Shown here piece by piece: positions 3,788-20,665 of a stretch of DNA of 64,000 nucleotides (positions are counted from its first letter, which is position 1; each line of letters opens with the position of its first letter). The notes beneath the pieces were generated by a model. It worked only from the letters and a program-made list of their open reading frames with translations, was not told the origin of the DNA and did not search any database. The translations under genes were made by a program, and so were the position numbers. The stretch spans positions 4,497,501-4,561,500 of the forward strand of contig NZ_AP023360.1 in assembly GCF_018326265.1 (NCBI RefSeq), given 5' to 3'. The DNA comes from Catellatospora sp. IY07-71. GTDB lineage: Bacteria; Actinomycetota; Actinomycetes; Mycobacteriales; Micromonosporaceae.

Positions 3788-3792
3788 CCTTT

Positions 3793-3881
3793 CTAGCGGA
3801 GGTAGATGTTGGGGAGGGTGGGGGTGGTCATGCCGTCGCCGATGAAGAAGCTCGGGTGGGGCGGCTGGTTGTAGGCGGTGT
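3793..3881 (-). pseudogene. attL: stranded 3' end of the rhamnogalacturonan lyase gene
   Basis: Read on the minus strand this encodes the final residues of the PL11 lyase (AYNQPPHPSFFIGDGM, then TTPTLPNIYLR and a TAG stop at 3793-3795) with no gene body attached. It matches 20577-20665. Two blocks are identical, 3824-3852 (29 nt) and 3854-3881 (28 nt), separated by one mismatch. The 3' flank (3793-3823) differs at several positions, so it is the original chromosomal end, while the side right of the crossover belongs to the element. Confidence 0.9.
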
Positions 3882-3987
3882 CATATCGCCCGGTCAAAGT
3901 CGATGCCGGTCGGCACTAAGGAAACCGGCTTTGAGCTGGGAAATACCAGCATCGTTCGTCGTTGTTGGTCATCGCTGGTTGACGTCT

Positions 3988-4008
3988 GACGGCCTGGTGA
4001 CGGCCTGA
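3988..4008 (+). repeat. Candidate integrase arm site, left end
   Basis: Two GACGGCCTG units 11 bp apart. The same 21-bp arrangement, with one mismatch, occurs at 20531-20551 at the other end of the element, with a further inverted unit (CAGGCCGTC) at 20561-20569. Repeats flanking both attachment cores are what arm-type integrase or excisionase binding sites would look like; that role is inference. Confidence 0.5.
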
Positions 4009-4126
4009 CCGCCCGAGCACCCCATCGAACGTTGGCGGCAGCCCTCACCGGCTGTCGGCGGCCAGCCGAGTTTCCCCGAGTCCTTCAGGCCTGTTTTCCG
4101 CGAACCGCGCGAAGATCGCCACAGCA

Positions 4127-5230
4127 TCAGCTACCGGACGACGCGTCTGTGCCGCTTCCTGGTCTGTCGAGCGGTTGCCGCAACCAGGCCCCGATACGGT
4201 TCCAGAGACCAGCGTTTACCAGAAACGCCACCCCAAGGCCGGCGGCCGCCGCCGCGAGGCCGATGGCCGCCACCCCGGCCAGAACTTCACCGTCTATCAG
4301 AAGCACCACTCCGACGCCGACGAGCTCCACCCCGCCGCCGATGGCTGCCACCCCGCCCAGAAGCTCGGCGTCTATCAGAAACGCTACCCCGCCTGCGATG
4401 AGCGCCACTCCGGCGCCTATGGCTACCACCCCGGCTACCACCCCACCGTCTATCAGAAGCCCCACGCCGCCTGTGACAGCGGCCACGCCGCCCACGATGG
4501 CAGCTACCCCGGCTAGCACGTCATCCACATCATCGTGCACCCGCCGCAATGCCGCCCCTAAACAGACGGCCGCTACCCCGAAGCCGATGACCGCTACCCC
4601 GGTCAGCACCCCACCGCGCACCAGCAATGCCGCCCCTAAACAGACGGCCGCTACCCCGAGGCCGATGACCGCTACCCCGGTCAGCACCCCACCGCGCACC
4701 AGCAATGCCACCCCGAAGCCGACGATTGCCACCCCGAGGCCGATGACCGCTACCCCGGTCAGCGCCCCACCGCGCACCAGCGATGCCACCCCGGAGCCGA
4801 CGATTGCCACCCCGAAGCCGATGGCCGATGCGGCTGTGAAGACGTTCAGCGCGGTGGTGGGGCTGGTTGGTATCAGGGCTGCGGCGATCGTCGTAGCGGC
4901 GAACAATAGCGTCGCGTACAGTGCGACGGTGCGCGTGTCGGCTGTGGCGGCAATAATCGTGGCGGCCAGCGCGACTGCGGCCAGAGTGCGCGTGGCGTAT
5001 ACCACCCGGCGTTGCCTCGGCTCGTCGGCGGCCTGGTCCCGTAGCCACAAGGCAGTGAAAACCAGCGCTGTAACTGCGGCGGCGACAGCGAGGATCCGAA
5101 TGCCGCCTACGTCGCTGGAGATGTTGACCGTCAAACCTGCGGTAAAGGCGCTGAGTCCAGCTGCGATCCGGGCGTGCCACTCAGTGCGCGGTCGGGCTTG
5201 TGCCGTCGCGGGAGATTCAGATTGCCCCAT
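4127..5230 (-). CDS. Membrane protein of tandem 26-residue hydrophobic repeats
   Basis: 367 residues from ATG at 5230 (encoding MGQSESPATAQ). The first 130 residues hold about four transmembrane segments (HARIAAGLSAFTAGL, LAVAAAVTALVFTALWL, TLAAVALAATIIAATA, ALYATLLFAATTIAAALI). About eight repeats of about 26 residues follow, of the type AVIGLGVAIVGFGVALLVR plus GGVLTG; one carries a short charged insertion (RRVHDDVDD). At the DNA level the repeats are 78 bp and several are nearly identical around 4560-4800. The opposite strand is also open but gives a Pro/Thr-rich translation with no gene-like features. Family not recognised; it is cargo next to attL. A stem-loop upstream separates it from the structured region. 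Confidence 0.7.
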   Translation of the reverse strand: MGQSESPATAQARPRTEWHARIAAGLSAFTAGLTVNISSDVGGIRILAVAAAVTALVFTALWLRDQAADEPRQRRVVYATRTLAAVALAATIIAATADTRTVALYATLLFAATTIAAALIPTSPTTALNVFTAASAIGFGVAIVGSGVASLVRGGALTGVAVIGLGVAIVGFGVALLVRGGVLTGVAVIGLGVAAVCLGAALLVRGGVLTGVAVIGFGVAAVCLGAALRRVHDDVDDVLAGVAAIVGGVAAVTGGVGLLIDGGVVAGVVAIGAGVALIAGGVAFLIDAELLGGVAAIGGGVELVGVGVVLLIDGEVLAGVAAIGLAAAAAGLGVAFLVNAGLWNRIGAWLRQPLDRPGSGTDASSGS

Positions 5231-5341
5231 CCGCACATGATGTCGACCGACAGCAACCGCTACAACTCCCCGGTAACTGGAAACACCGCCGGAACCCGTC
5301 GTCGCCGCCGACCAAACTGCACCGACGCTGCATGATGCGAG

Positions 5342-5378
5342 AAGAAGCGCCGTCAAGCTAGCCTTGACGGCGCTTCTT
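5342..5378. terminator. Perfect 16-bp hairpin
   Basis: Arms AAGAAGCGCCGTCAAG (5342-5357) and its exact complement (5363-5378) with a 5-nt loop; the loop region is part of a GCTAGC palindrome. It lies 112 bp upstream of the repeat-protein start and next to a long structured non-coding stretch, and could insulate the two transcription units. Confidence 0.7.
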
Positions 5379-5457
5379 GCATTGCAGAGGAATCTCATCA
5401 ACGGGTCGGGGTGAGCTGCTCTCCTCGGCAGGGCAGGCTCTGGCCCGTCCCGGGGTT

Positions 5458-5522
5458 CCTGGCGGGGGCAAGGCTCGCCGAAGGCGACCGCGCTTGCGCG
5501 GCTTGGCCTTGCCCCCGCCAGG
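5458..5522. repeat. Inverted repeat, 17-bp perfect arms
   Basis: CCTGGCGGGGGCAAGGC at 5458-5474 pairs exactly with 5506-5522 across a 31-nt spacer that itself contains small dyads (CGCCGAAGGCG; CCGCGCTTGCGCGG). It is not next to a gene end, so it is more likely a structured RNA or DNA site than a terminator. Confidence 0.75.
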
Positions 5523-5755
5523 GTTCTCGGGTGCCCTTGTGGTGACCTGGTGAGGAGAGCGCCACTGCACTCTGAGGCGGGCCGGGGTGGCGGGGCAGCG
5601 CCCCGCGGTTTTCTCCACCCGGGGTCAGTCACTCTCCGCGCTGGCCGGCCACGACGGAGCGTAGTCCCCGGAGGGTGCGCCGGGCGGAGGCTCACGTTGC
5701 CCCCTGGTGTCGCCGACATGGCGGCCCGCTATTGGCCGCTCCCCGTTGCGCCAGT

Positions 5756-5821
5756 CCGGTCGGGCGGTTGCGTGGTCGGGCCGCTGAGCCTGCGGCGCGG
5801 CCCGACCACGCGCCCGACCGG
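5756..5821. repeat. Inverted repeat with about 25-bp stem
   Basis: The inner arms GCGTGGTCGGGCCGC (5770-5784) and 5797-5811 are perfect complements. The outer arms CCGGTCGGGCG (5756-5766) and 5811-5821 extend the stem past a 3-nt bulge. Loop is 12 nt. It is one of the strongest secondary structures in the window and has no adjacent gene. Confidence 0.8.
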
Positions 5822-6098
5822 CGGCGCAAGCGGCCCGTCAGGGCCGCCTTGAAGACGTACAGAAATTCATCACAGCATCGCTGCCGACGCCCGGTGTGCT
5901 GTCCCGGTAGATGCTTGACATCGGCGTCCCAGTACCTGCTTGACCAGTCGGCTGCTGTGCAACCACGCGAGTCACGGACGGCGCGAAAACCCTGCGGCCA
6001 CGTAGCAGTTACCCGAACAGCTGCACGCCCGGGTCTGCTGCACCGATAGGTGACATCAGAGATGGCTTGCCCTGTGGGCGGGCTGGAAGGATGTCGCT

Positions 6099-6407
6099 GT
6101 GCCAAAGCCCTACCCCCGAGAGTTCCGTGACGACGTCGTGCGGGTCGCGCAGACCCGCGATGCCGGCGTGACGGTCGAGCAGATCGCCAACGACTTCGGC
6201 GTGCACCCGATGACGTTGTTCAAGTGGATGCGCGCCGCCGACGTCGACGCCGGCACCAGACCCGGTGTGAGCAGCACCGAGTCCGCAGAGCTCCGGGAGG
6301 CGCGCAAGCGGATCAAGCTGCTGGAGCAGGAGAACGAGGTCCTGCGCCGGGCCGCGGCCTACCTGTCCCAGGCGCACCTGCCGGGAAAAGGATCTACCCG
6401 CTCGTGA
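6099..6407 (+). CDS. IS3-family transposase OrfA
   Basis: 102 residues, GTG start. An N-terminal helix-turn-helix (PREFRDDVVRVAQTRDAGVT, then VEQIANDFGVHPMTLFKWM) binds the IS ends, and a C-terminal leucine-zipper-like coil (ELREARKRIKLLEQENEVLR) allows multimerisation. An A-AAA-G slippery sequence at 6386-6390 lies near the end, where a -1 frameshift would fuse it to OrfB. Its TGA overlaps the GTG of OrfB. Confidence 0.9.
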   Translation: MPKPYPREFRDDVVRVAQTRDAGVTVEQIANDFGVHPMTLFKWMRAADVDAGTRPGVSSTESAELREARKRIKLLEQENEVLRRAAAYLSQAHLPGKGSTRS

Positions 6408-7264
6408 CAGATCTGGCCGCCGACAGCATCCCCGTCGCGGTGACGTGCCGGGTACTGAAGATCACCCGCCAGCACTACTACCGCTGGCTCGCCCGACCAG
6501 TCACCGACGCCGAGTACACCCAGGCGTGGCGAGCCAACGCCCTGCACGACGCCCACCGCGACGACCCCGAGTTCGGCTACCGGTTCCTGGCCGACGAAGC
6601 CGCCGCGGCCGGGCAGCCGATGGCCGACCGGACCGCATGGAAGATCTGCTCCGGCCACGGCTGGTTCAGCGCCTTCGCCCGCAAACGGCGCGGCAAGGGA
6701 CGCAAGGTCGGCCCACCGGTCCACGACGACCTCGTCCGGCGCGACTTCACCGCGCCCGGCCCGAACCGGCTGTGGCTTGCCGACATAACCGAACACCGCA
6801 CCGGCGAGGGCAAGCTCTACCTGTGCGCGATCAAGGACGCCTGGTCCAACCGGATCGTCGGCTACTCCATCGACTCGCGCATGAAGTCCCGCCTGGCCGT
6901 GACCGCGCTGCACAACGCCACCGCCCGCCGCGACGGCGTGGCCGGGTGCGTCGTGCACACCGACCGCGGGTCGCAATTTCGATCACGGAAGTTCGTCGCC
7001 GCACTGCACCGGCACCGCATGCGCGGCTCGATGGGGCGAGTCGGGGCGGCCGGGGACAACGCGGCCATGGAGTCGTTCTTCGGCCTGCTGCAGAACAACG
7101 TCCTGGACCGCCGCACCTGGGCCACCCGCGACCAACTCCGCACCGCGATCGTCACCTGGATCGAACGCACCTACCACCGACGCCGGAGGCAGCGCCCACT
7201 CGGCAAGTTGACCCCGATCGAGTTCGAGACAATCATGACCCCGTCGGCCAGTCAGGCCGCGTGA
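6404..7264 (+). CDS. IS3-family transposase OrfB (DDE integrase domain)
   Basis: 286 residues if started at GTG 6404; it can also be made as an OrfAB fusion through the slippery site at 6386-6390. It contains the HTH_21-like region (RVLKITRQHYYRWLARPV) and the rve catalytic core with acidic residues in LWLADIT, HTDRGSQ and AMESFFG, ending with the typical TYHRRRRQRPLG segment. All three catalytic acids are present and the frame is intact, so the element should be active. Confidence 0.92.
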   Translation: MTDLAADSIPVAVTCRVLKITRQHYYRWLARPVTDAEYTQAWRANALHDAHRDDPEFGYRFLADEAAAAGQPMADRTAWKICSGHGWFSAFARKRRGKGRKVGPPVHDDLVRRDFTAPGPNRLWLADITEHRTGEGKLYLCAIKDAWSNRIVGYSIDSRMKSRLAVTALHNATARRDGVAGCVVHTDRGSQFRSRKFVAALHRHRMRGSMGRVGAAGDNAAMESFFGLLQNNVLDRRTWATRDQLRTAIVTWIERTYHRRRRQRPLGKLTPIEFETIMTPSASQAA

Positions 7265-7273
7265 CTACACCTG

Positions 7274-7687
7274 TCACCTATCGGTGCAGCAGACCCACCC
7301 TGCGGCGAGCAGGTGCGTACGTAGCTCGGGATCGGCGTTGGGATGACGAGCGATTATGTGCAGGGAAGTTGACCACTTGACGCCATGCTTCTGCTCTTCA
7401 TCGGCGGCCAGTTCGGCCAGGGCGTGCGCCGGAGTGTTCGGATTGAGCAGCGCGTTCCACCGCACGAGTTCATCCTCGTCGGCCATAAGCCGTGCCAACG
7501 TAGCGCCCTCGGTTCGCGGATGTCTCGCGACATAGATCCGTACCGGGCGAACGTCGTCGACTGCGAGTTCTGCGAGTCGATCCGCAGGCACGGTGGGGTC
7601 TCTCGCTTCGAGCACGCGCCGGTAGCCGGCCATCCGCTCGTCTCGTGTTCGCGAGATGCGCCTGAGCCACGCAGCTGACCCTCTCAT
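7274..7687 (-). pseudogene. LRV/HEAT-like repeat protein, 3' end cut off by the IS3 element
   Basis: 137 residues from ATG at 7687. Leucine-rich-repeat-variant style units are clear: PADRLAELAVDDVRPVRIYV, then ATLARLMADEDELVRWNALL, then AHALAELAADEEQKHG and SLHIIARHPNADPELRTHL. The final residues (VCCTDR and stop) are encoded inside the terminal repeat of the IS3 element, so the natural C-terminus is gone. No matching remainder was recognised left of the IS at 5879-6030. How many residues are lost is unknown; such proteins are found in many actinomycetes without assigned function. Confidence 0.75.
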
Positions 7688-7790
7688 GGCGCGAGCGTAG
7701 ATCAAATGTCGAAGCAGCCGGTGGAACGGATCGGTCAAGCAGGAACTGGGACTAGACACGAACGCCGCCGCTTTGTGCTCCGGTAGATGC

Positions 7791-9289
7791 TTAATACGGC
7801 AGCCCAAGTTCGTGATGTAGCCGCCGGTCGATGATCACGGTTCGGCTCAGAGGGCGTGTAGCTGCGAAGACAGGAGCGGCCGCCACGTGATCATTGTCTG
7901 TTGTGGACAGGATCAACGATTCGGTGGCGGCCGTGGCTGCCAGGATAGACCCCGCCGCGTGGGCGGCTGAGTTCGAGGTGTGCTTCGCCAGGATCGCGCC
8001 GGCGTTCGCGCGGGTCGAGCCCCGGCGGCGGGCCCGCCGGTTCGTGCAGGCGCTGCTGGCGCCGCTGGAGTCACGGTCGTGCTGGCAGATCGCCGAGTAC
8101 GCCGGTGAGGCCAACCCGGGCGGTATGCAGCGGCTTCTCGCCTCGGCGGTGTGGGACGAGACGTGGGTACGAGCCCAGGTCCGCGACTACGTCCTGGCCG
8201 AGTTCGGCCCCGACGGGGTCCTGATCGTCGACGAGACCGGCGACGCGAAGAAGGGAACAGCCACCTGCGGAGTGCAGGAGCAATACACCGGCACCCTGGG
8301 CAAGGTCGACAACGCGCAGGTCAGCGTGCACCTGGCCTACGCCACCGCCGACCACGCCCGGGCGCTGATCGACTGCGCGCTGTACCTGCCCGCCAGTTGG
8401 ACCGACGACCCCGAACGCTGCGCCGCCGCGGGCGTGCCCGCCGACGTCGGGTTCGCGACCAAGCCCCAGCTGGCACTACGCATGATCGAGGACGCCCTCG
8501 ACGCCGGCGTGGCCGCCGGGTTCACCGCGGGCGACGAGGTCTACGGCAACGACCCGGTCCTGCGTGCCCGGCTGCGCAAGCGGCGCATGGGCTACGTCCT
8601 GGCCGTGCGCTGCGACACCGCCCTGACCCGCTGGGACCACCCGAACCACACGATCACCGCCAAGAAGGTGGCCGAGCACCTGCCCGCGCACGTGTGGCAG
8701 CGCTACCTGGCCGGCTGGGGCTCCAAAGGGCCGCGGTACTACGACTGGACCCGCGTCAAGATCGCGGAGACGGAGGCCGACGGCAGCGTCGGCGGGCACC
8801 ACTGGCTGCTGTTTCGCCGCAACCCGACCACCGGCGACACCGCCTACTACCGGTGCTGGAGCCCGGAGACGGTCGCGCTGCCCACCCTGACCAGGGTCGC
8901 CGGGCTGCGCTGGCCGATCGAGTCCTGCTTCCAGTTGGCCAAAGGCCAGACCGGCCTGGACCAGCACCAGGTCCGCACCTGGACGTCCTGGCACCGCTAC
9001 ACCACCCTCGTGCTGGTCGCGTTCGCGTTCCTCGCCGTCCTGGCCGCCCGCCAGCCACAACCCGCTCCGACCATCGACCCCGACCCGGACCGGCTGCCAC
9101 CGCTGTCGGCGGCAGAGATCCGCCGCCTGCTGCCATACGCATTCGCCATAGCCGATGCCAGCATGAGCGCGACGATCCGCAGCCTGGCCTGGCGACTCCG
9201 CCACCAAGCCCGATCACGCCACTACCACCACAAACGCCGAGCCACCGTCGACATCAGTCAATGATCACGAACTTGGGCTGCCGTATTAA
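7791..9289 (+). mobile_element. IS701-family insertion sequence with TTAA target duplication
   Basis: Inverted repeats starting TACGGCAGCCCAAGTTCGTG at 7795 and ending with the complement at 9285 are perfect over 22 bp. TTAA flanks both sides (7791-7794, 9286-9289). This fits the 4-bp YTAR target duplication known for the IS701 family. Clean ends and an intact transposase suggest a recent insertion. Confidence 0.9.
7903..9264 (+). CDS. IS701-family transposase
   Basis: 453 residues from the GTG that aligns with the usual MDRIN start. The DDE-type catalytic segments are present: VLIVDETGDAKKG (first Asp), FTAGDEVYGND (second Asp), and RWPIESCFQLAKGQTGLDQH (Glu), followed by the Y-H-T region (SWHRYTTLVLVAFAFL). 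Length and order match the family. It is complete, sits between intact inverted repeats and is unrelated to the AICE's transfer functions. Confidence 0.93.
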   Translation: MDRINDSVAAVAARIDPAAWAAEFEVCFARIAPAFARVEPRRRARRFVQALLAPLESRSCWQIAEYAGEANPGGMQRLLASAVWDETWVRAQVRDYVLAEFGPDGVLIVDETGDAKKGTATCGVQEQYTGTLGKVDNAQVSVHLAYATADHARALIDCALYLPASWTDDPERCAAAGVPADVGFATKPQLALRMIEDALDAGVAAGFTAGDEVYGNDPVLRARLRKRRMGYVLAVRCDTALTRWDHPNHTITAKKVAEHLPAHVWQRYLAGWGSKGPRYYDWTRVKIAETEADGSVGGHHWLLFRRNPTTGDTAYYRCWSPETVALPTLTRVAGLRWPIESCFQLAKGQTGLDQHQVRTWTSWHRYTTLVLVAFAFLAVLAARQPQPAPTIDPDPDRLPPLSAAEIRRLLPYAFAIADASMSATIRSLAWRLRHQARSRHYHHKRRATVDISQ

Positions 9290-9748: not shown

Positions 9749-9842
9749 ATCATCAGCGAGGCAGTACCCGGGACCTGCCTGGCACTAATCCCTTGAGAGC
9801 GTGACGTACCGAACGCAGGCCACTTTCAGTAGGCTGCCCCGT

Positions 9843-10412
9843 GTGACCGTATCCGTCGAGCAGGCTCGGTTGACTGCTGCTTTCCTCTTGGAGGGGCCGC
9901 TACCCCGCCGGTGGAGCCATGTTCGCGCTGTCGGCACGAAGGCGGAGGCCATTGCCGGTGCCGTCGCCGAAGCAGACCGTGTCGTGCTCGCAGCGGCGGC
10001 CTGGCTGCACGATGTCGGCTACAGCCCGGATCTTGTTGACACCGGGTTTCACTCCCTCGACGGCGCTCGTTGGCTGCGTGCGAACGGTTTCGACGAGCGT
10101 GTGACGGCGCTGGTGGCTCATCACTCCTGTGCGTGGCTGGAGGCGGAGGAGCGGGGCCTGGGCGAGGTTCTCGCGGCCGAGTTCCCGCGCGAGGTCTCAT
10201 CGGTGGCCGACGGCTTGTGTTACTGCGATATGACCACCGGCCCCGATGGGCAGAGTCTCGATGTTCCGGCCCGGCTGGCTGAGATCCGCTCACGGTACGG
10301 CCCTGACGCCCTGGTCACTCGCTTCATCACCCGAGCCGAGCCGGACATTCTCGCGGCGGCGGAGCGAACGCAGACTCGACTGACCGCCGCCGGGATCGCT
10401 CAGCCGATATAG
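9843..10412 (+). CDS. HD-domain phosphohydrolase
   Basis: 189 residues from GTG 9843. HD superfamily metal ligands are visible in order: WSHVRAVG (His), [11 protein letters not shown] (the HD pair), [12 protein letters not shown] (His) and [12 protein letters not shown] (His), with [14 protein letters not shown] as the distal Asp. This is the metal-dependent phosphohydrolase pattern seen in small actinobacterial HD proteins, probably acting on nucleotides; the substrate is unknown. Its 3' end overlaps the convergent Nudix gene by 13 bp. It is cargo of the AICE. Confidence 0.85.
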
Positions 10413-10864
10413 GGCTGTGTTCGGTCATATCCGTGCTCGATCCGTAGGCGCGTTGACGGGTGGATTGCCAGCTCCTCCAGCTCGGCTCGCTCGACCCATC
10501 GAACGTCGCTCGATTCGGCGCTGGGTGTGGGTTCGCCTCCGAGATACTCGCCCCTCAGGCAGACGGAGAACTGCTGTCGGATCTCGCCGTCTGTGTAGGC
10601 CACGACGTGGTTCGGGTCGCTGTAGATGCCGACCAGGCCCACCACTTTGATCTGAACGCCGGTCTCTTCCAGCGTCTCTCGGACAGCTGTCTCGGCGAGG
10701 TACTCGCCGATCTCCTGACCTCCGCCCGGCAGGCTCCACAAGCCGTTGTCCGTGCGGCGGATGAGCAATACGCGGTCGCCGTCGCGGACGAAGGCAGTCG
10801 TGGCCACCACGATGCTGTTCGCCTTGGGAGCCTGGGGGTCGTAGTAGTGCTCGGTTCGTGCCAC
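10400..10864 (-). CDS. Nudix hydrolase of the AICE (Pif-like position)
   Basis: 154 residues. A complete Nudix box (G-x5-E-x7-RE-x2-EE-x-G) is visible as [20 protein letters not shown] then ETGV, about residues 47-70. It lies 4 bp downstream of the XRE-PLD regulator and forms an operon with it. In pSAM2 a Nudix protein (Pif) blocks redundant transfer into cells already carrying the element; the same role is likely here by position but is inference. A housekeeping nucleotide-cleaning function is the alternative. Confidence 0.85.
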
Positions 10865-10868
10865 GCTC

Positions 10869-11627
10869 CTAGCGTGCCACCTCTGCCGGCCATGCCGAGG
10901 AGGACGTCTCGCGCACCTTGTCGAAGCTCTCCAGGTAGGTGTCGAAGAGGTCGCCTCCAGCCAGCCGCCGGAGCTGCAGGACAGGCGCGTGTGGCGCTGG
11001 AAATCCGTAGACGTGGGTGTTGACCAGCATGTCGTCGTCGAAGCGGTAGATCGAGTTGTAGAGGGTCGTGTTGTGGAACCGGACGCTGATTCCGGGCACG
11101 TCTCGTACGCGCTCGTAGTACCGCATGACCTGCCTGATCTTGGCGGCCATGACGCCGTCTGTGCTCTCCTCCTTGCTGCGCAGATCGATCTCCGTGCTCG
11201 TTGGATCGCCGAGCAGGATTTCGATGGTCACACCAGCCGCCGCCTTTGCCTTCAGCGTCTCCACGAGCCGAGGGCGCTGCTCGACGAGGAACACCCCTGC
11301 GTAGACGAGGATGCCGATCCTCTCCTGCGCCTGGTCAAGCAGGCGGTGCCAGAGGTCATCGGGCACTGCGCTTCGCCTGGGGTGAAGTTGAACGACTTCT
11401 GATCGAGCGACCTGGGTGGCCCGCTCCGGCGACAGCGCCTCCGGCCACAGATACCGCTCCGACTCACCGAGCTGTACCGAGATCTCGCGGCGGTGACGAG
11501 GGTAGGGGGTCCGGTCCTGGGTCATCCACCGTTCTACCGTCTTGGGGTCGACACCGATCTTCTCGGCGAGTATCGCGGGGGTCAGCCCTTTGCGCATCAT
11601 GGCGTCTCGAAGCCGGTCGTTGCTCAC
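10869..11627 (-). CDS. XRE-type regulator with C-terminal PLD-like domain
   Basis: 252 residues from GTG 11627, chosen because GAGGAGGA lies just upstream. The N-terminal helix-turn-helix ([20 protein letters not shown], then [10 protein letters not shown]) is followed by a phospholipase-D-like fold ([44 protein letters not shown]). No canonical HxKxxxxD is visible, so the PLD part is probably a sensor. Such XRE-PLD proteins recur beside Nudix genes in AICEs. The gene is divergent from the transfer/replication operon, and a perfect 23-bp dyad precedes it, suggesting it represses both directions. Confidence 0.8.
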
Positions 11628-11639
11628 CGAATCCTCCTC

Positions 11640-11687
11640 GGACAACTAGGGACGTCTTGATTCTAATCAAGACGTCCCTAGTTGTCC
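11640..11687. promoter_or_regulatory. Perfect 23-bp palindrome between divergent AICE operons
   Basis: Arms 11640-11662 and 11665-11687 are exact complements separated by 2 nt; the inner part reads GGGACGTCTTGATT - CT - mirror. It lies immediately upstream of the ribosome binding site of the XRE-PLD gene and about 100 bp before the rightward operon. It is a good candidate operator for the XRE regulator or a shared promoter-control site. Confidence 0.75.
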
Positions 11688-12273: not shown

Positions 12274-12357
12274 GCGCGGGGTCGGCCTGACTCCTACATC
12301 TACCGACCCCGTGCCCTCCACAAATCCAGCCCTACACAGGGAGGACCTGTCGTGTCT
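12274..12357 (+). repeat. 84-bp duplicated gene leader, copy 1
   Basis: Matches 12713-12796 at 81 of 84 positions. It contains a small hairpin (GGGGTCGG at 12278-12285 and CCGACCCC at 12303-12310), the ribosome binding site AGGGAGGA and the first codons of the downstream gene. A partial third trace (TGACTCCTACATC) occurs near 12215. Both full copies sit directly before a gene, so each gene has the same 5' leader. Confidence 0.85.
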
Positions 12358-12666
12358 GACGCCATCCACATCGACCTCGCACAGAGGTTCATCGGCCTTG
12401 CCTGGCACGTCAGCGGCGTCTGCCCGGCCAGCGTCTGCGTCTCCGAGATGATCCGCGTCCACGTGCAGGACGGGCAGCCTGTCCAGGTCCTCGACGCCAT
12501 CACCGACGAGGTCATCGTCACCGGCGTGCTGCTGGACAACACCGACGCGTCGTTCGACAACGCGATGCACGCCCTGGCCAACCACACGGGTCTGAGCGTC
12601 TTCGTGGAGGACTCGACCTCTGAGAACGACTACCCCGAGAACGTCTACTGCTACTGGCCCGCGTGA
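12352..12666 (+). CDS. Hypothetical AICE protein, paralogue of the 16017-16337 gene
   Basis: 104 residues from GTG 12352 behind AGGGAGGA. The centre (QVLDAITDEVIVTG, then ALANHTGLSVFVED) matches the protein at 16017-16337 (MVLDCASDEVIVTG, then LADFTGLPVRLTD), so the two are paralogues inside one element. No enzymatic motif is seen. The gene is preceded by leader copy 1. Confidence 0.65.
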   Translation: MSDAIHIDLAQRFIGLAWHVSGVCPASVCVSEMIRVHVQDGQPVQVLDAITDEVIVTGVLLDNTDASFDNAMHALANHTGLSVFVEDSTSENDYPENVYCYWPA

Positions 12667-12712: not shown

Positions 12713-12796
12713 GCGCGGGGTCGGCCTGACTCCTACATCTACCGACCCCGTGCCCTCCACAAATCCAGCCCCATACAGGGAGGACTTGTCGTGTCC
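12713..12796 (+). repeat. 84-bp duplicated gene leader, copy 2
   Basis: Near-identical to 12274-12357 (three substitutions, no gaps). It includes the same small hairpin (12717-12724 with 12742-12749), the ribosome binding site and the GTG start of the membrane protein at 12791. It may be a duplicated promoter or a shared post-transcriptional control element. Confidence 0.85.
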
Positions 12797-13738
12797 AACT
12801 CTAGCCGAGGCGGTGGCCTGTTCAGCCGCCGCAAGTCTCCGGCACAGGTGACGGTCCTTGAGGCCAAGGTTCACCACACTGCGGCGCGCAACGCCAAGGC
12901 GTCGCTGATCGTCGTGGGTCTCCTGGCCGCCGCCGTGGCGGTCGTCGTGCTCCTGGACCACCTGCACCCGTTCCTCGCGGTGTTCGCGGGCCTGCTGATC
13001 GGCGCTGTCGCCGGTGGGTTGGCCTGGGTCTCCGTCGTGGTGTGGCCGGTGGTCCGCAAGATCTGGTGGTGGACCCCGGTGATCGGCGCCCTCGGCCTGG
13101 TCGTCGGGTTCGCGTGGACCCTGGCGCGTCTGCCGCTGTGGGTCCGGCTGCTCGTCCTGGCCGCGCTCGCTGGCCTGGCCGCGCTGGGTTCGGTCCGGCG
13201 TACCGCGGTCGCGCTGTTCTGGTGCGTCACGGTCCGCCACCGCCTGCGTGAGGCGTTCGACGAGTTCATCACGGCCAACAAGTCCGGGTCGCTGCCGTTC
13301 ATCGGCTTCGCTGTGCCGACCCCGGTCGGTGAGCGGGTGTGGGTGTTGCTGCGTTCCGGGCTGTCGCTGCCGATTTTGGAAGCACGTCTGGACCAGCTCG
13401 CGGTCACGTGCTGGGCGTCTTCGGTCAAGGTCGTTCGTGCTCGCGAGGGCGGCAACGCCGCGTTCGTGCGTTTCGACATCAAGCGCCGTGAGGTGCTGAC
13501 CGCCGCCGTGGGCTCCCCGCTACCGCACCTGGTCGACCCCGACACGCCTTCGGTCGCTCGCCCGTCCGGGCCGGTGCCGACCGCCCTCAACCTGGGCGAC
13601 ATCCCCGCCGACACCGAACTGATCGGTACCTACACCCCGTCGTCGGCCCGCCCCACCAGGGCCAAGGCCCCCTCGGGCAACAGCCCGGCCGCAACGCCGG
13701 CCACGCCCGACACCGACGACGACAACGAGTGGATCTGA
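12791..13738 (+). CDS. AICE membrane protein, probable partner of the transfer ATPase
   Basis: 315 residues from GTG 12791. About four transmembrane segments lie in residues 35-140 (ASLIVVGLLAAAVAVVVLL, FLAVFAGLLIGAVAGGLAWV, VIGALGLVVGFAWTL, LLVLAALAGLAALG). A cytoplasmic region (VRHRLREAFDEFITANKSG) and a Thr/Pro/Ala-rich acidic tail ending DTDDDNEWI follow. The FtsK-type ATPase encoded next lacks membrane helices of its own, so this protein probably supplies the membrane anchor that single-chain TraB proteins have at their N-terminus. That partnership is inference. Confidence 0.7.
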   Translation: MSNSSRGGGLFSRRKSPAQVTVLEAKVHHTAARNAKASLIVVGLLAAAVAVVVLLDHLHPFLAVFAGLLIGAVAGGLAWVSVVVWPVVRKIWWWTPVIGALGLVVGFAWTLARLPLWVRLLVLAALAGLAALGSVRRTAVALFWCVTVRHRLREAFDEFITANKSGSLPFIGFAVPTPVGERVWVLLRSGLSLPILEARLDQLAVTCWASSVKVVRAREGGNAAFVRFDIKRREVLTAAVGSPLPHLVDPDTPSVARPSGPVPTALNLGDIPADTELIGTYTPSSARPTRAKAPSGNSPAATPATPDTDDDNEWI

Positions 13739-13797
13739 CCCGCCTACGGGGCCGTCGACCGTCGGCGGCCCCACCTCCCGGAAGGAGAGCACTTCAC

Positions 13798-14640
13798 ATG
13801 TCCACGCTCATGGCCGTCAAGGAGGCACCCGCTGTGCCGGTCGGTCCGTCGCTGAGCATCTACGACCCGATCTTCCTCGGGATCGACGAGTTCGGCGCCC
13901 ACGTCAACCTCGGGCTGATGGGCCGAAACCTGCTCGTCGGTGGTGAGCCCGGTGGCGGTAAGTCCGGGCTGCTCAACGCCATCTGCGCGCACGCCGCGCT
14001 GTCCACGGACTGCCGCCTGGTCCTGTTCGACGGCAAGCTGGTCGAGCTGGGCCAGTGGGAGGACTCCGCCGACGAGTTCGTCGGCTTCGACCCCGAACGG
14101 GCCATCAACGTCATGGCGCGCCTGTCGGCGCTGATGAACAACCGCTACACGTGGATGAAAGCCAAGGGCATCCGCAAGATCGACCCGAGCCACGGGCTCG
14201 AAGCGGTCCTGACCATCATCGACGAGTTCGCGCTCTACACCGCCACCTACGGCGACAAGAAGAGCCAGGAGCTGTTCACTGCGCTCATGCGCGACCTGGT
14301 CGCCCGTGGCCGTGCCTGCGGCATGCCCGTCGTCGCCGCGACCCAGCGCCCGTCGTTCGACATCATCCCCACCAGCCTGCGGGACCTGTTCGCCTACCGG
14401 TGCGCATTCCGGTGCACCACCGAGAGCAGCTCCGACGTCATCCTCGCTCACGGCTGGGCGGCCAAGGGCTACTGCGCCACGGCCATCCTGCCCACCAACC
14501 AGGGCGAGGCCCTGCTGCTGGCTGAGGGCGGCATCCCGCGCTCGATCAAGGGCAGCTTCCTCACCGACGACCAAATCAAGCAGATCGCCGACTACGCGGC
14601 GTGGATCCGCCGCCCCCACCGACTGGAGGACACCAAGTGA
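13798..14640 (+). CDS. FtsK/SpoIIIE-type DNA transfer ATPase (TraSA/TraB-like)
   Basis: 280 residues from ATG 13798 behind GAAGGAGAG. Walker A is GGEPGGGKS (about residues 48-56), Walker B is VLTIIDEFALY, and VAATQRPSFDIIP is the typical FtsK sensor segment. In AICEs this hexameric motor moves double-stranded DNA from donor to recipient mycelium. It is shorter than most TraB proteins and has no transmembrane segment or visible wHTH gamma domain; the membrane part may be the preceding protein. The next gene starts within its stop codon (GTGA). Confidence 0.88.
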   Translation: MSTLMAVKEAPAVPVGPSLSIYDPIFLGIDEFGAHVNLGLMGRNLLVGGEPGGGKSGLLNAICAHAALSTDCRLVLFDGKLVELGQWEDSADEFVGFDPERAINVMARLSALMNNRYTWMKAKGIRKIDPSHGLEAVLTIIDEFALYTATYGDKKSQELFTALMRDLVARGRACGMPVVAATQRPSFDIIPTSLRDLFAYRCAFRCTTESSSDVILAHGWAAKGYCATAILPTNQGEALLLAEGGIPRSIKGSFLTDDQIKQIADYAAWIRRPHRLEDTK

Positions 14641-15323: not shown

Positions 15324-15640
15324 CCCAGCCGACCGACACCGTCAAGAACACCGTCAAGGACACCTTGACGATCCCCGCCCAGCGCACCCGCACCCGTGGT
15401 GCGGTGGAGAACCGCGAGTTCGCGGCCTTCGCCCGACGCATCATCCGCGCCCACGCCCGCCGCGTCGCCTCCGGCGACGTCGAGGCCCTCACCGACCTGG
15501 TCGCCCTGTCGACCGCCGTGGACCAGGCCATCACCGACGCCGTGACCGGCCTCAAGGACTTCGGCTACTCCTGGACCGAGATCGCCAACCGAATCGGCAT
15601 CAGCAAGCAGGCCGCCCAGCAGCGCTGGGGGCAGAAGTGA
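15320..15640 (+). CDS. AICE helix-turn-helix protein
   Basis: 106 residues. A C-terminal helix-turn-helix (GYSWTEIANRIGISKQAAQQ, about residues 82-101) is the sigma-70-region-4/AsnC style motif common in small AICE proteins. The N-terminal half contains ARRIIRAHARRVASGDVEAL. Probably a DNA-binding regulator of element genes. It overlaps both neighbours by 4 bp. Confidence 0.75.
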   Translation: MTQPTDTVKNTVKDTLTIPAQRTRTRGAVENREFAAFARRIIRAHARRVASGDVEALTDLVALSTAVDQAITDAVTGLKDFGYSWTEIANRIGISKQAAQQRWGQK

Positions 15641-16020
15641 CCACCACCACCCGCCCCACCGGGGCCTTCTCCAAGTTCTACGACCCGACCGGCGCCCGCT
15701 ACGGGCTGCCCACCTACCCCTACTCCTGCGCCCCTGACGGGCTGGCCACCATCCGGCAGCTTCGCGCGGCCGGCCTTCGGGCCGGCGGACACGACCCGGT
15801 GGCCCAGATCCTCTGGCGCAACCCGCGCCACCCCCGCGTGGCCTACCTCTACCGCACCGACCTCGCGCTGCCCAAGCGCACCGCCACCCCGGCGCAGCTC
15901 ACCGCCATCGCCGCGGCTCTCACCGCCCGCCGCACCTGCTCCACCTGCCAGCAGGTGAAGCCCTACTACATCCCGACCCGCTACGGCCGCTGCCTCGACT
16001 GCCGTGGAGGCACCCGATGA
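15637..16020 (+). CDS. RRQRL-type zinc-binding AICE protein
   Basis: 127 residues from GTG 15637. It has the signature of the family: GLPTYPYSCAPDGLATIRQL then RAAGLRAGG, followed by AYLYRTDLALPKR and a C-terminal zinc site with CSTC and CLDC (about residues 104-123). These proteins are near-universal AICE components of unknown action. Overlaps both neighbours by 4 bp. Confidence 0.75.
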   Translation: MTTTTRPTGAFSKFYDPTGARYGLPTYPYSCAPDGLATIRQLRAAGLRAGGHDPVAQILWRNPRHPRVAYLYRTDLALPKRTATPAQLTAIAAALTARRTCSTCQQVKPYYIPTRYGRCLDCRGGTR

Positions 16021-16337
16021 GCGACACCATCCGCGTCGACATCGTCGACAAGAGCCCTGGCAACGGCGGCTGGCGCATCACCGGCACCTGCCCCGACCGG
16101 ATCTCCGCATCCGGTGGCCTGCACGTCTACGCCGGACGCACCGCCATGGTCTTGGACTGTGCCTCCGACGAGGTCATCGTCACCGGCCGGTCCCTGTCCG
16201 GCGTCCTGCAGAACCTCGCCGATTTCACCGGCCTGCCGGTCCGCCTCACCGACGAGGTCCACGGCCGGACCAACACCTTCCACCCCGCTACGGGGACCAC
16301 CCTGCCTGCCGACCTCAGGGAGGTTGACCATGTCTGA
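16017..16337 (+). CDS. Hypothetical AICE protein, paralogue of the 12352-12666 gene
   Basis: 106 residues. Shares SDEVIVTG and FTGLPV segments with the protein at 12352-12666 and has the same length class. ATG overlaps the preceding stop, and the 3' end overlaps the DUF2637 gene by 8 bp. No motif points to an activity. Confidence 0.6.
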   Translation: MSDTIRVDIVDKSPGNGGWRITGTCPDRISASGGLHVYAGRTAMVLDCASDEVIVTGRSLSGVLQNLADFTGLPVRLTDEVHGRTNTFHPATGTTLPADLREVDHV

Positions 16338-17145
16338 CATCCGCACCCGGGGCCGTGGCTGGGCCTACGCCGGGACCATCGTCGGCGGTGGGCTGTCCAT
16401 CGCCGCCAACCTCATGCACAGCTTCGTGCCCCCCGCCGACGCCCCCGAGGGCTGGACCCCCAAGGTCGGCGCGGTCGTGTTCTCGGTCTTCTGGCCGATC
16501 CTGCTGTTCATCGCCGTCGAGATCCTCGCCCGCGTCATCTGGCCCGAGGGCCGCTGGTACAAGGTGGCCCGCTTCGGCGGCATCCTGCCGGTCGCGATCG
16601 TCGCCGGATACGTGTCCTACCGGCACCTGTCAGCGCTGCTCGCCTCCTGGGGCGAGGAGACCGCAACCGTCTACGTCGGCCCGCTGGCCATCGACGGCCT
16701 CATGATCATGGCCACGGCCGCACTGCTGGTCATCGGCAACAACACCCGCACCACCGCCGACACCACGACCACCACCCCGGCCCCTGTCCCGGCTGCGCCG
16801 GTCACCCCGGCTCCGGCCACGGTCGCCAACACCGGCAGCGGTCACTCTCCGCGCCCGCCTGCCACAACCCAGCGTCACGACACCTCGGCCGGTGGGCCGG
16901 TCGTCATCGTGGACCCGGTCCTCGACGCCGAGCCGGTCACCGTACCGGCGCACCTGCTCACCACCGCCCGGTTCACCATGAACCAGTTCGCGGGCTCCAT
17001 CGGCCGTCCCATCAGTGCCGACGAGCTGGCGGCCTACATGAACGTCACCCCCGTCATGGCCCGGCTGATCCTGGCCGAACTCGGGGAGAACGTTCCGGCC
17101 ATCACCAGCGCCCACCTCAACGGCACCCCGGCAGGTGCCCGGTGA
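16330..17145 (+). CDS. DUF2637 membrane protein (AICE Spd-like)
   Basis: 271 residues from ATG 16330. The N-terminal half has four transmembrane helices (AGTIVGGGLSIAANLM, GAVVFSVFWPILLFIAVEIL, FGGILPVAIVAGYVSYRHL, PLAIDGLMIMATAALLVI), the DUF2637 pattern. A Thr/Pro/Ala linker (about 140-200) and a C-terminal cytoplasmic helical region with SADELAAYMNVTPVMARLIL follow. DUF2637 proteins are constant AICE members and are thought to help spread of the element within recipient mycelium; this is by analogy. Confidence 0.8.
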   Translation: MSDIRTRGRGWAYAGTIVGGGLSIAANLMHSFVPPADAPEGWTPKVGAVVFSVFWPILLFIAVEILARVIWPEGRWYKVARFGGILPVAIVAGYVSYRHLSALLASWGEETATVYVGPLAIDGLMIMATAALLVIGNNTRTTADTTTTTPAPVPAAPVTPAPATVANTGSGHSPRPPATTQRHDTSAGGPVVIVDPVLDAEPVTVPAHLLTTARFTMNQFAGSIGRPISADELAAYMNVTPVMARLILAELGENVPAITSAHLNGTPAGAR

Positions 17146-17405
17146 GCATCATCCGTGTCGAGGTGGATTACTACCGCCACACGTCCCCGGCCAACCCTGA
17201 GCCGCACGTGGTCGACACCCGCCAGAAGATCGCCGACGTGATCCCCGGTGGGGCCTGCCTCACCCCGGTCACCGTGCGATCCGGCGACACCACCCGCACC
17301 ATCGCCTGCGGAAGGCACGAACCGGCCTCGCGCCAGTGCCGCGCCTGCCGCGTCACCATCATCGAGGTCCGCACCAACGTCCACGACACCGGTGCGTACG
17401 CCTGA
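17142..17405 (+). CDS. Small AICE protein with Cys/His cluster
   Basis: 87 residues, GTG overlapping the previous stop. CGRHEPASRQCRACRV near residue 60 could bind a metal (C-x2-H ... C-x2-C). No known family recognised. Its TGA overlaps the ATG of the RepSA gene. Confidence 0.6.
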   Translation: MSIIRVEVDYYRHTSPANPEPHVVDTRQKIADVIPGGACLTPVTVRSGDTTRTIACGRHEPASRQCRACRVTIIEVRTNVHDTGAYA

Positions 17406-19141
17406 TGACGGCTTCGATGCTGGACGCCGCACCCCGACCCCTCATTACGGGCCGGGGTGCGGCCTCGAACACCGAAACCGGCCACCCCTCCACGGTCGGC
17501 AGCATCTTCCACACCGCTCTCCTCGACCGCACCTCGCAGGGCGACTACTTCGGCTGGCTGGAGCACATTCGCTCGGCCGCAGGCTGCACCCGCCCAGTCC
17601 GGCTCGCCGGGGAGCTACACACCGTGCACCGGCACGGCGACGCCGCGACCGTGCTGGACTCCAGCTCCACCGCGACGATGCCTGACGGCACGATCTACAA
17701 GGCCTGCGGCAACCGGCGCGCCTCGCTGTGCCCGTCCTGCGCCCGCACCTACCAAGCCGACGCCTACCAGCTCCTGCGCGCAGGGCTCGTCGGCGGTAAA
17801 GGCATCCCGGCCACCGTCGCCACCCACCCGGCCGTATTCGCCACGTTCACCGCACCGTCGTTCGGGCTGGTCCACCGCCGCGTGGTCAAACGCCACACCT
17901 GCACCGACCGGCGCCGCTGCGACTGCCGCCCCAAGCCCTGCCGCGCCCGCCGCCCGGCCGACGACGCCACCGACTGCGCCCACGGCACGCCCGTGGCCTG
18001 CTTCGCCCGCCATGACGCCGACGATCCCCGGCTCGGTCAGCCCTTCTGCCTCGACTGCTACGACCACGCCGCCCAGGTCGTGTGGAACCTGTACGCCGGT
18101 GAGCTGTGGCGGCGCACCAAGCAGGCCATCGACCGCGAACTTGCCAAGCTCGCCCGGCGGCTCGGCATCCCCCGCGTTCAGGTCGGCATCCACCCGGTCA
18201 CCGGGCATCGGATCACCAAACCGCCCGTGCACACCTCCTGCGGCAAGGTCGCCGAGTTCCAGACACGCGGCGCGGTCCACTTCCACGCCCTCATCCGCCT
18301 GGACGGCGTCGACGCCGACGACCCGGACGCCATCGCCGCGCCCGCGGCCGCGTTCACCGCCGCCGACCTCGACGCCGCGATCCGGGCCGCCGCCGCGTCC
18401 ATCGACTTCACCACCCCAGCACACCCCGACCAGCCCGCAGGCTGGCGCATCGCCTGGGGAGACCCGCGCAAGGGCATCGACGTGCGCCCGATCAACCTCG
18501 ACGGGGCCGAAGTCACCGACAGCATGGCCGCCGGATACCTGGCCAAGTACGCCACCAAATCCACGGAGGCGACCGGACACGCCTCCGTGCGGCTCACCGA
18601 CGAGACGATCGACTACTACGCCGACCCTGACGGCAGCCACGCCGCCCGCCTCGTCGCCGCCTGCTGGCGACTCGGCCGCCCCACCCACAAGCCGGTTCCG
18701 CTGGGGGACCGGCCTCGCCGTGGTGACGCTGTGCTCCCGCCGGCCACTACGGCGCGTGACATCAACGCCGAGAATCCCTACGCCGGGCTGCGCCGCTGGG
18801 CACACATGCTCGGCTTCGGCGGCCACTTCATGAGCAAGAGCCGCCGCTACTCGGTCACCTTCGGCCAACTGCGCGCCGTACGCACCGCCTACCGCCGCGC
18901 CGAGCTGCCCGACCACCCCGGCGCGCTCCAGATCGGCCACGACGACCAGGACCACGAAGACACCATCCTCGTCGTCGGCACCCTCGCCTTCGCCGGAGTC
19001 GGCTGGCACACCAGCGCAGACGCGCTGCTGGCCAACACCGCTGCCGCCATGGCCCGCGAACGAGCAGCCACCGGCCGCGAAGAGATCGCACACGAACTCG
19101 GCACCACCCCGCCCACCCCACACCCCTTGGAGCACCCATGA
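17405..19141 (+). CDS. repSA: RepSA-type replication initiator
   Basis: 578 residues from ATG 17405. Rolling-circle initiator of the pSAM2 RepSA family. Zinc-like cysteine clusters lie in the N-terminal half (KACGNRRASLCPSCARTYQ; CDCRPKPC). The HUH motif is AVHFHALIRLDG (about residues 293-304). The tyrosine-containing region is VTDSMAAGYLAKYATKSTE. It starts replication of the excised circle, which AICEs need before transfer. Starts inside the previous stop and ends inside the start of the excisionase gene, so rep, xis and int are co-expressed. Confidence 0.9.
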   Translation: MTASMLDAAPRPLITGRGAASNTETGHPSTVGSIFHTALLDRTSQGDYFGWLEHIRSAAGCTRPVRLAGELHTVHRHGDAATVLDSSSTATMPDGTIYKACGNRRASLCPSCARTYQADAYQLLRAGLVGGKGIPATVATHPAVFATFTAPSFGLVHRRVVKRHTCTDRRRCDCRPKPCRARRPADDATDCAHGTPVACFARHDADDPRLGQPFCLDCYDHAAQVVWNLYAGELWRRTKQAIDRELAKLARRLGIPRVQVGIHPVTGHRITKPPVHTSCGKVAEFQTRGAVHFHALIRLDGVDADDPDAIAAPAAAFTAADLDAAIRAAAASIDFTTPAHPDQPAGWRIAWGDPRKGIDVRPINLDGAEVTDSMAAGYLAKYATKSTEATGHASVRLTDETIDYYADPDGSHAARLVAACWRLGRPTHKPVPLGDRPRRGDAVLPPATTARDINAENPYAGLRRWAHMLGFGGHFMSKSRRYSVTFGQLRAVRTAYRRAELPDHPGALQIGHDDQDHEDTILVVGTLAFAGVGWHTSADALLANTAAAMARERAATGREEIAHELGTTPPTPHPLEHP

Positions 19142-19326
19142 GCAGCGCCACCACCCACCGCCTGTGGAGCGTCGACGACGTCTCCACGTACCTCGGCATC
19201 CCCGTGGAAACCCTCTACACCTGGCGCAAACGCCGCTACGGACCACCAGCCGCCCGCGTCGGTAAACACCTCCGCTACGACCCCGACGCCGTCCGCGCCT
19301 GGTTCACCGCCCAAACGACCGCCTGA
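19138..19326 (+). CDS. xis: Excisionase (MerR-type HTH)
   Basis: 62 residues. One winged helix-turn-helix of the MerR/excisionase type: LWSVDDVSTYLGIPVETLYT, then WRKRRYGPPAARVGKHLRYD, the standard AICE Xis pattern. It would bend attachment-site DNA and turn the integrase toward excision. It overlaps rep by 4 bp and lies 13 bp before int. Confidence 0.9.
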   Translation: MSSATTHRLWSVDDVSTYLGIPVETLYTWRKRRYGPPAARVGKHLRYDPDAVRAWFTAQTTA

Positions 19327-19339
19327 ACAGGAGAGACGA

Positions 19340-20551
19340 ATGGCACACATCGAGGACCGTTGGTACAAGACCGTCGTCGGCGACGACGGCAAGAAGAAGC
19401 GGGTCAAGACCGGCCTACACGGCAAGGGCCTGCGCTATCGGGTGCGATACGTGGCCCCGGATGGCCGTGAGCGGTCGCAGTCGTTCCCCGACCGAGAGAA
19501 GAAGCAGGCAGAAGACTTCCTGATCAAGATTGAGAACGACAAGCGAGCGCAAACCTACGTCGACCCTCACGCGGGTCGGATTTCGTTCCGGCAGTACGCC
19601 GAGCAGTGGCTGGCGACCGTCGCAGTCGACGAGTCGACGCGGGAGAACTACGGCTCGCGTCTGCGCAACCACATCCTGCCGTTCTTCGGCACGCGATCAC
19701 TAGCCTCGATCAAGCCGGAGATGGTGCGGCATTGGGACCGGGCGTCCGGCCTCGCCGTGGCGACCCGAGCGGTGAACTTCGCAATCCTGCAGGCGATCTT
19801 CAATGCTGCCATCGACGACGAGCGGATCGCGAAGAACCCGTGCGCTGCCAAGTCGGTGACTGCGCCCAAGCCGGAGCCGAGGACGGTCGTGCCGTGGACC
19901 GCCGGACAGGTCCTGGCAGTTCGCTCTGGACTGCTCGACCGGTACCGCTCGATGGTCGACGTGGCGGCTGGGTGCGGCGTCCGGCAGGGTGAGGCCTTCG
20001 GCCTCAGCATCGATGACCTGGACAACGACGCCGGGTGGTTGCACGTTCGCCGTCAGGTCAAGCGGGTGAAGCACCGGCTCGTGTTCGGCCTGCCCAAGAG
20101 CGACAAAGAACGCCGGGTGCCACTGCCGGCAAGAGTCAGCCAGGCGTTGAAGATGCACGTCGAGCAGTTTCCGCCGGTCGAAGTTACGTTGCCCTGGGAA
20201 GACCCGGACTCGACGAAACTCGTGACGGTTCCCCTGGTCTTCACCTCGCTACGCCCGTATGCGATCAACCGCAACTCGTTCGACCCCAAGCACTGGCATC
20301 GCGCGCTCCGGCACGCCGGGATCGCGCCGGGCCGTGACTCCGGCATGCATGCCCTGCGCCACTTCTACGCTTCGGTCCTCCTGGACGCGGGGGAGAACGT
20401 CAAGGCTCTGTCCGAGTACCTCGGCCACGCCAACGCGGCGTTCACGCTCCGGGTCTATGCCCACCTCATGCCGGGCAGTCAGGACCGTACTCGCCGCGCC
20501 ATCGATGAGATGTTCGGTGAGAACGGCCCTGACGGCCTGGCGACGGCCTGA
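19340..20551 (+). CDS. int: Tyrosine site-specific integrase
   Basis: 403 residues. N-terminal SAM-like/core-binding domain (FRQYAEQWLATVAVDESTRE, residues about 77-96), then the catalytic domain with Arg in GVRQGEAFGL, Lys/beta strand SDKERRVPL, HALRHFYAS (H-x2-R), GHANA and the nucleophile Tyr in TLRVYAHLMPG. All catalytic residues are present. It ends 26 bp from attR. The attachment site implied by the flanks is the 3' end of a pectin lyase gene rather than a tRNA. Its last codons form part of a terminator hairpin and an arm-like repeat. Confidence 0.95.
   Translation: MAHIEDRWYKTVVGDDGKKKRVKTGLHGKGLRYRVRYVAPDGRERSQSFPDREKKQAEDFLIKIENDKRAQTYVDPHAGRISFRQYAEQWLATVAVDESTRENYGSRLRNHILPFFGTRSLASIKPEMVRHWDRASGLAVATRAVNFAILQAIFNAAIDDERIAKNPCAAKSVTAPKPEPRTVVPWTAGQVLAVRSGLLDRYRSMVDVAAGCGVRQGEAFGLSIDDLDNDAGWLHVRRQVKRVKHRLVFGLPKSDKERRVPLPARVSQALKMHVEQFPPVEVTLPWEDPDSTKLVTVPLVFTSLRPYAINRNSFDPKHWHRALRHAGIAPGRDSGMHALRHFYASVLLDAGENVKALSEYLGHANAAFTLRVYAHLMPGSQDRTRRAIDEMFGENGPDGLATA
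20531..20551 (+). repeat. Candidate integrase arm site, right end
   Basis: Two GACGGCCTG units matching 3988-4008 at 20 of 21 positions, located in the last codons of int. An inverted unit follows at 20561-20569. See the left arm entry. Confidence 0.5.
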
Positions 20552-20570
20552 TCATGAAATCAGGCCGTCG
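20541..20570. terminator. Bidirectional hairpin between int and the lyase
   Basis: Perfect 12-bp stem CGACGGCCTGAT / ATCAGGCCGTCG with a 6-nt loop, covering the int stop codon. It lies 6 bp from the lyase stop at 20577, so the element brings both a replacement gene end and a replacement terminator for the disrupted host gene. Confidence 0.75.
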
Positions 20571-20576
20571 CGGAGA

Positions 20577-20665
20577 TCATCGGACGTAGATGTTGGGAGA
20601 GTTTGGCGTGGTCATGCCGTCGCCGATGAAGAAGCTGGGGTGGGGCGGCTGGTTGTAGGCGGTGT
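20577..20665 (-). other. attR: element-supplied 3' end of the lyase gene
   Basis: Same 89 bp as 3793-3881. It carries a different downstream part: TTPNSPNIYVR with stop TGA instead of TTPTLPNIYLR with stop TAG. Crossover must have occurred in one of the two identical blocks (20608-20636 or 20638-20665). Coding is uninterrupted across it, which is why the lyase remains full length. Confidence 0.9.

Follow-up and report, generated by a model that had tools for sequence, protein, structure and literature searches.

Elements that integrate into protein-coding genes can restore the 3' end that they interrupt, as do prophages and islands such as e14 and P21 in icd. For actinomycete integrative and conjugative elements (AICEs), the accessible parts of two papers place those with tyrosine integrases overwhelmingly at tRNA 3' ends, with the exception of the pSLS subfamily (PMC3218068), and give these ends as the site of most known AICEs (PMC3364876). 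The available text of a further survey counts 36 tRNA genes, 14 protein-coding genes and one intergenic site among 51 AICE insertion sites, with rlmN and a glycosyltransferase gene among the protein-coding targets, and describes both accretion and decay, together with partial integrases, at the same site (PMC9513070). Here we describe a locus in a 64,000-nt stretch of Catellatospora sp. IY07-71 (NZ_AP023360.1, positions 4,497,501 to 4,561,500; hereafter the window), which comes from a genome assembled as a single 8.6-Mb contig (G000:C1:4497501-4561500). We are highly confident that it holds a pSAM2-like AICE in the 3' end of a PL11 rhamnogalacturonan lyase gene, with the native gene end displaced and a substitute end supplied by the element.

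The element is bordered by an 85-nt direct repeat (3797-3881 and 20581-20665; 91% identity), whose copies start 16,784 bp apart and share two identical blocks of 29 and 28 nt with one mismatch between them, the remaining mismatches lying on the stop-codon side. A repeat search thus agreed with an earlier note on this DNA, which had reported the same spacing and blocks. The repeat spans the codons for NTAYNQPPHPSFFIGDGM plus the final residues of the lyase. The right copy, attR (20581..20665, minus strand), has the host towards the 5' side of the gene and the element towards its 3' side, and codes for the C-terminus TTPNSPNIYVR inside an open 773-aa lyase frame. The left copy, attL (3793..3881, minus strand), comprises an element arm and then a lyase end, TTPTLPNIYLR plus stop, that we read as native and displaced; translation bore out both C-termini as first described. 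A tyrosine integrase gene (int; 19340..20551, plus strand; 403 aa in an open frame; Pfam Phage_integrase 5.4e-18) adjoins the att border, with its stop at 20551 and attR starting at 20581. The AICE core named in the earlier note stands for three of its members, namely the integrase, the RepSA replication initiator (17336..19141, plus strand; PF20199 2.4e-139) and the FtsK/SpoIIIE transfer ATPase, which is TraB-like (13729..14640, plus strand; PF01580 1.7e-13, 51 bits against a cut-off of 24). The NCBIfam RepSA model also matches the initiator (1.9e-100), under the model's own cut-off, and the plasmid_TraB model falls far under its cut-off on the ATPase. The fourth, xis, is an excisionase-like helix-turn-helix (HTH) protein (19138..19326, plus strand; HTH_17 2.1e-11) that scores 21.8 bits with the excisionase model TIGR01764 against a cut-off of 28.8.

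Evidence on which end is native came from a comparison of 12 lyase genes, including that of the window, over a 1,410-nt core from which the att region was excluded. The window core is nearest that of genome G002 (95.5%), with the two placed as sisters at 100/100 support, whereas the current tail of the window lyase is 33.1% identical to that of G002 and nearest that of G004 (84.0%), whose core is less like that of the window (88.2%). Because the tail is nearest G004 while the core is nearest G002, the tail travels with the element and not with the gene. In G002, the intact lyase has the C-terminus STPTLPNIYLR, with a hairpin behind it, and attL of the window with its hairpin is 99.3% identical to this end and hairpin over 142 bp. 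Since the intact end of G002 matches the left copy and not the present tail of the window, the polarity is settled, and sequence comparison supports the left copy as the displaced native lyase end and the right copy as the end supplied by the element. This discordance between core and tail upholds the earlier proposal that attB is the coding end of the lyase and that the element brings a substitute end and hairpin. The native terminator-like hairpin, displaced together with the native end, lies at 3736..3797 on the minus strand (RNA fold -37.8 kcal/mol, z -7.9), and hairpins of the same family directly follow the lyase stop in G002, G006 and G007, which share this type of uninterrupted gene end. 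When the two flanks are joined in silico, an intact 773-aa lyase results, and the joined flanks (600 nt leading up to the junction and 400 nt beyond it) align unbroken through stop and hairpin to G002 (701 nt, 94.4%), G006 (698 nt, 91.5%) and G007 (697 nt, 90.1%). Alignments to the remaining lyases of the genus, seven with an integrase remnant behind them (one weak) and the paralogue G009b without one, stop at the stop codon (query 639-652), before the hairpin.

The hairpin, GAAGGGCACCTTC-N-GAAGGTGCCCTTC, forms a dispersed family, with 184 exact-arm copies in the window genome and none for a reversed control; among the copies listed, nearly all measure 44 nt, and the inner stem varies. All 11 genomes of the genus have the family, with 1 to 192 copies each, and 50 genomes from other genera have none; the window scan gave no Rfam family match for it.

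All 11 genomes in the genus sample carry PL11, and integrases recur at the lyase. Just past the lyase stop, tblastn found a C-terminal integrase remnant in six of the ten other genomes (G004, at 85%, G009a, G003, G010, G001 and G005; E 7e-5 to 3e-25) and a weak one in a seventh (G008, E 0.037). The remnants are convergent with the lyase and start about 30 nt past its stop (64 nt in G005); none was found beside the lyases of G006 and G007 or the paralogue G009b. G003 has a second remnant 4.6 kb farther on (E 2.5e-4) and G010 a weak one (E 0.17); in G004, another contig bears a further lyase end that has a remnant with it (E 0.002). In G002 (L060), the native lyase end and hairpin are followed 1.8 kb on by a second, partial lyase end, the stretch between them containing two open reading frames, a second hairpin and a transposase-like fragment. 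Past attL, the window has a flanking host open frame (2869..3753, minus strand). The earlier note expected uninserted lyases to be followed by the gene at 2869-3645; its homologue does stand after the second lyase end of G002 (90% over 238 aa), but was not found downstream within 13.7 kb in G006 or 11.4 kb in G007, and the lyase neighbourhood therefore varies. The window and G002 differ in state, which makes at least one insertion recent.

These data allow other histories to be weighed. If the polarity were reversed, the right copy would be native and the left copy borne by the element, and NSPNIYVR-type ends do occur in G003 and G004 as well; yet the lyases of both these genomes have integrase remnants behind the stop, the hairpin of the left copy stands behind three genes free of remnants (G002, G006 and G007), and the window gene body goes with G002 while its tail does not. 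We regard such a reversal as very improbable. Unlikely, although deserving more weight, is a single ancient insertion in the ancestor of the genus followed by clean loss in G002, G006 and G007. A remnant at the same place in six to seven of the ten other genomes would fit this history, and precise excision would restore the native end and hairpin. It accords poorly with the opposite states of the window and G002, whose lyases are sisters (100/100), and with a displaced native end that is still 99.3% like that of G002, so that the insertion in the window looks recent. The extra remnants (G003, the weak one of G010, and G004 on another contig) also hint at repeated arrivals, those of G003 and G010 having no copy of the lyase end. 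That the repeat arose by duplication of, or homologous recombination between, lyase paralogues, with the AICE a bystander, is barely credible: the genome does contain a second, divergent PL11 gene, but its locus matches the 58-nt attB block with no fewer than 22 mismatches, and what the repeat encloses is an AICE whose paired motifs lie close within the two borders and whose int adjoins attR.

Several observations count against insertion of an AICE with replacement of the gene end, the reading that we prefer. The lyase-linked integrases of the relatives are C-terminal remnants only, and the nearest full-length integrase homologues are at most 63% identical and do not stand beside a lyase. No second lyase end was found on the same contig in integrase-bearing relatives (that of G004 is on another), and none accompanies the second remnants of G003 and G010. 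The layout of G002 is a rearrangement without explanation. Because the genus carries this hairpin as a dispersed repeat, finding one behind a gene tells us little on its own. Finally, homology between the att copies extends well past a recombination core, and the crossover, which we infer to lie inside one of the two identical blocks, is thus not placeable to the base.

Under the insertion reading, integration would have proceeded by tyrosine recombination within the last part of the lyase gene. The attP site would carry a near-copy of the NTAYNQPPHPSFFIGDGM coding block and, after it, a different C-terminus with its stop and a new hairpin that the convergent int would share. Integration would carry the gene's original final codons, with their hairpin, 16.8 kb off to attL and join the element's own end to the gene at attR, so that the 773-aa frame remains open. 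The hairpins presumably terminate transcription, the lyase is probably still expressed and active, and the element may still be able to excise. The paired motif GACGGCCTG-NN-GACGGCCTG occurs exactly at both borders, as GACGGCCTGGTGACGGCCTG on the left (3988..4007, plus strand) and GACGGCCTGGCGACGGCCTG on the right (20531..20550, plus strand), where it overlaps the last int codons and codes for the final residues of the integrase. Allowing up to three mismatches, a search of the window returned the same two matches only (0.48 expected; two reached in 8 of 100 shuffles). Of 25 homologues scanned, 12 have a degenerate paired motif next to int, a count made without a chance control. These motifs may be arm-type sites bound by the integrase. 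Between the convergent int and lyase lies a perfect 13-bp inverted repeat (20540..20571, on neither strand in particular), and the interval 20545-20590, which contains part of it, folds more stably than shuffled sequence (lyase strand, z -3.3; int strand, z -2.4); this repeat is likely an element-borne terminator shared by the two genes.

The target gene (20577..22898, minus strand) codes for a PL11 rhamnogalacturonan lyase of 773 aa with an N-terminal CBM2 domain, and its last codons appear to be those supplied by the element. Pfam matches comprise RGL11_C (8.8e-242), RGI_lyase and CBM_2, and the RGL11 catalytic domain is present. An RNA-gene target, whether tRNA or other, was considered and rejected, since an Rfam scan of the 64 kb at gathering thresholds gave no match; the tRNA-Ala that ARAGORN calls at 21646-21738 falls within the lyase, some 1 kb from attR, and is taken as false. 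The earlier description of a pectinase gene as an unusual target for an AICE needs correction, as protein-gene targets as such are not new, going by the accessible parts of PMC9513070 and PMC3218068.

Spread of the element had also been tied to pectin-degrading hosts, and this link is unsupported. PL11 is common in the family sample (231 of 300 genomes at E 1e-180), and a pooled search at E up to 1 found no integrase remnant at any of 70 PL11 loci of other genera. These loci combine the 30 best-scoring with 40 picked across genera and are not a random draw; at least 1.48 kb past each stop was examined, in separate passes at E 0.01 and E 1. The smaller set of 40 gave two chance matches (E 0.58 and 0.86), away from the gene end. 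A lyase near an integrase homologue was seen only at the window genome's own loci (34 loci searched, flanks of about 1.5 kb), and the idea of integrase homologues dedicated to PL11 is likewise unsupported outside the genus. The NTAYNQPPHPSFFIGDGM block itself is conserved, with NTAYNQPPHP in 66 and NTAYNQPPHPSFF in 42 of the 70 outside loci. Against the 58-nt attB block, the best matches at these loci have 2-20 mismatches, compared with 2-6 at 11 lyase loci in other genomes of the genus, and DNA divergence of the block may for this reason itself limit the range of the element.

Homologues of the integrase (34-63% identity) adjoin the 3' ends of rnpB, metH, a DUF520 gene that we take to be yajQ, a CTP_transf_like gene that is presumably nadD, and other genes. 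The closest outside the window's own genome are 57-63% identical (121 genomes, own included), and a scan of named genomes gave 10 loci, the best at 60%. At rnpB, the gene of RNase P RNA, AICE-type relatives duplicate the last bases of the gene, the repeat extending into it in L080, L085, L096 and L098 (Rfam and repeats), and rnpB-like end sequence is also found in L007, L009, L014 and L078. The element of L085 is short or decayed, because its two repeat copies lie within about 4 kb. The yajQ target is seen with a repeat in L076, and a similar end stands beside the Micromonospora integrases L070, L071 and L077; metH is identified by Pfam for L016, with short repeats in L094, which is the same place, and in L093. 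The nadD target occurs with a repeat in L022/L099, and a DUF4253 gene in L015/L092 shares 20 identical bases. Two Pfam-identified genes, which we assume to be nusG and glnA, and one that we label AsnC-like are integrase neighbours only, without a proven duplicated end. In line with the earlier reading, no tRNA was seen at the junctions in an ARAGORN scan of 27 loci, in which flanks were limited and far borders often lay beyond the stretch; off the junction, tRNA-Trp lies 1.3 kb past int in L072 and tRNA-Tyr upstream of yajQ in L076. As a separate observation, L088-L091 (G059:C1:3894000-3968000) are a tandem pile-up of related elements, with three equal-scoring integrase copies and two broken ones within about 65 kb at about 16-kb spacing, and past one copy the sequence is similar to that of the rnpB end.

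In an integrase tree of 27 rows, in which the 8 of 26 homologues without known target were counted as one class, target labels required 14 changes (minimum 9), compared with a mean of 16.4 in shuffles, 12 of 200 of which were as low. The rnpB label alone required 7 changes, at least 5 of them forced by well-supported branches, and not fewer than in shuffles. The yajQ rows and the metH rows each form one supported group, and the window integrase has no firmly placed nearest relative. These patterns suggest that targets have probably switched often, although the count is soft. It seems an evenly balanced matter whether an AICE integrase group has repeatedly switched among the 3' ends of conserved genes, both protein-coding (PL11, yajQ, metH, nadD and DUF4253) and RNA (RNase P RNA), by means of a captured end, with PL11 as a habitual landing site in the genus where insertion and decay exchange lyase tail and terminator between species; the change count that bears on this includes the class without known target.

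The rest of the element holds a DUF2637 protein (16114..17145, plus strand; PF10935 1.4e-6), an HD-domain protein (9801..10412, plus strand; PF01966 2e-9), a NUDIX protein that is a candidate conjugal-immunity gene product (10400..10864, minus strand; PF00293 1.3e-19) and a candidate HTH regulator (10869..11645, minus strand; HTH_31 under cut-off). At the start of the regulator frame, 11640-11687 forms an inverted repeat whose 23-bp arms match perfectly around 2 central nt; it is likely an operator or promoter-region palindrome. Two insertion sequences, of the IS3 family (6031..7296, plus strand; 25-bp perfect terminal inverted repeats) and the IS701 family (7791..9289, plus strand; 26-bp perfect terminal inverted repeats), lie in the left part of the element outside the AICE genes and were absent from the earlier account. 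Near attL, a 149-nt unit recurs in six imperfect copies at 4212-4840, with a spacing of mostly 78 nt, in a region with long open frames on both strands (4032-5240, plus; 4127-5719, minus) that have no Pfam match. A 94-nt pair (12274-12367 and 12713-12806; 91% identity) leads in each case into a GTG, a possible open-frame start.

AICE insertion in protein genes is a known kind of event; new, as far as searched, are the PL11 target, the evidence for native versus substitute ends and the recurrence within a genus. Among the open-access literature matches listed, no title or abstract reports PL11 or rnpB as the target of an AICE, which is not proof of absence. With this locus, the known AICE landing sites come to include a carbohydrate-active enzyme gene, and the sister genomes with and without the insertion offer a clean natural experiment on native and element-brought gene ends. 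The locus also suggests that AICE surveys keyed to tRNA neighbours would miss this integrase group and that relatives use rnpB and several protein genes, a pattern that makes target switching testable. Like elements of the e14/P21 type, the element carries a substitute coding end, while it differs from them in element type and target. With pSAM2-type AICEs it shares xis-int next to att, repSA before them, an FtsK-type transfer gene, a NUDIX gene and direct repeats at the borders; unlike in these, the target is the 3' end of a protein gene and not of a tRNA gene. Its paired motifs differ from the pACPL and pSAM2 arm-type repeats given in the accessible text of PMC3364876, and in avoiding tRNA genes it resembles the pSLS integrase subfamily as described in the available part of PMC3218068. 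In common with the protein-gene AICEs in the accessible portion of PMC9513070, it shows site-specific insertion, with decayed relatives and partial integrases at the same site, and it differs from them in its target gene and in that the native end, the substitute end and the displaced hairpin can be told apart through a sister genome.

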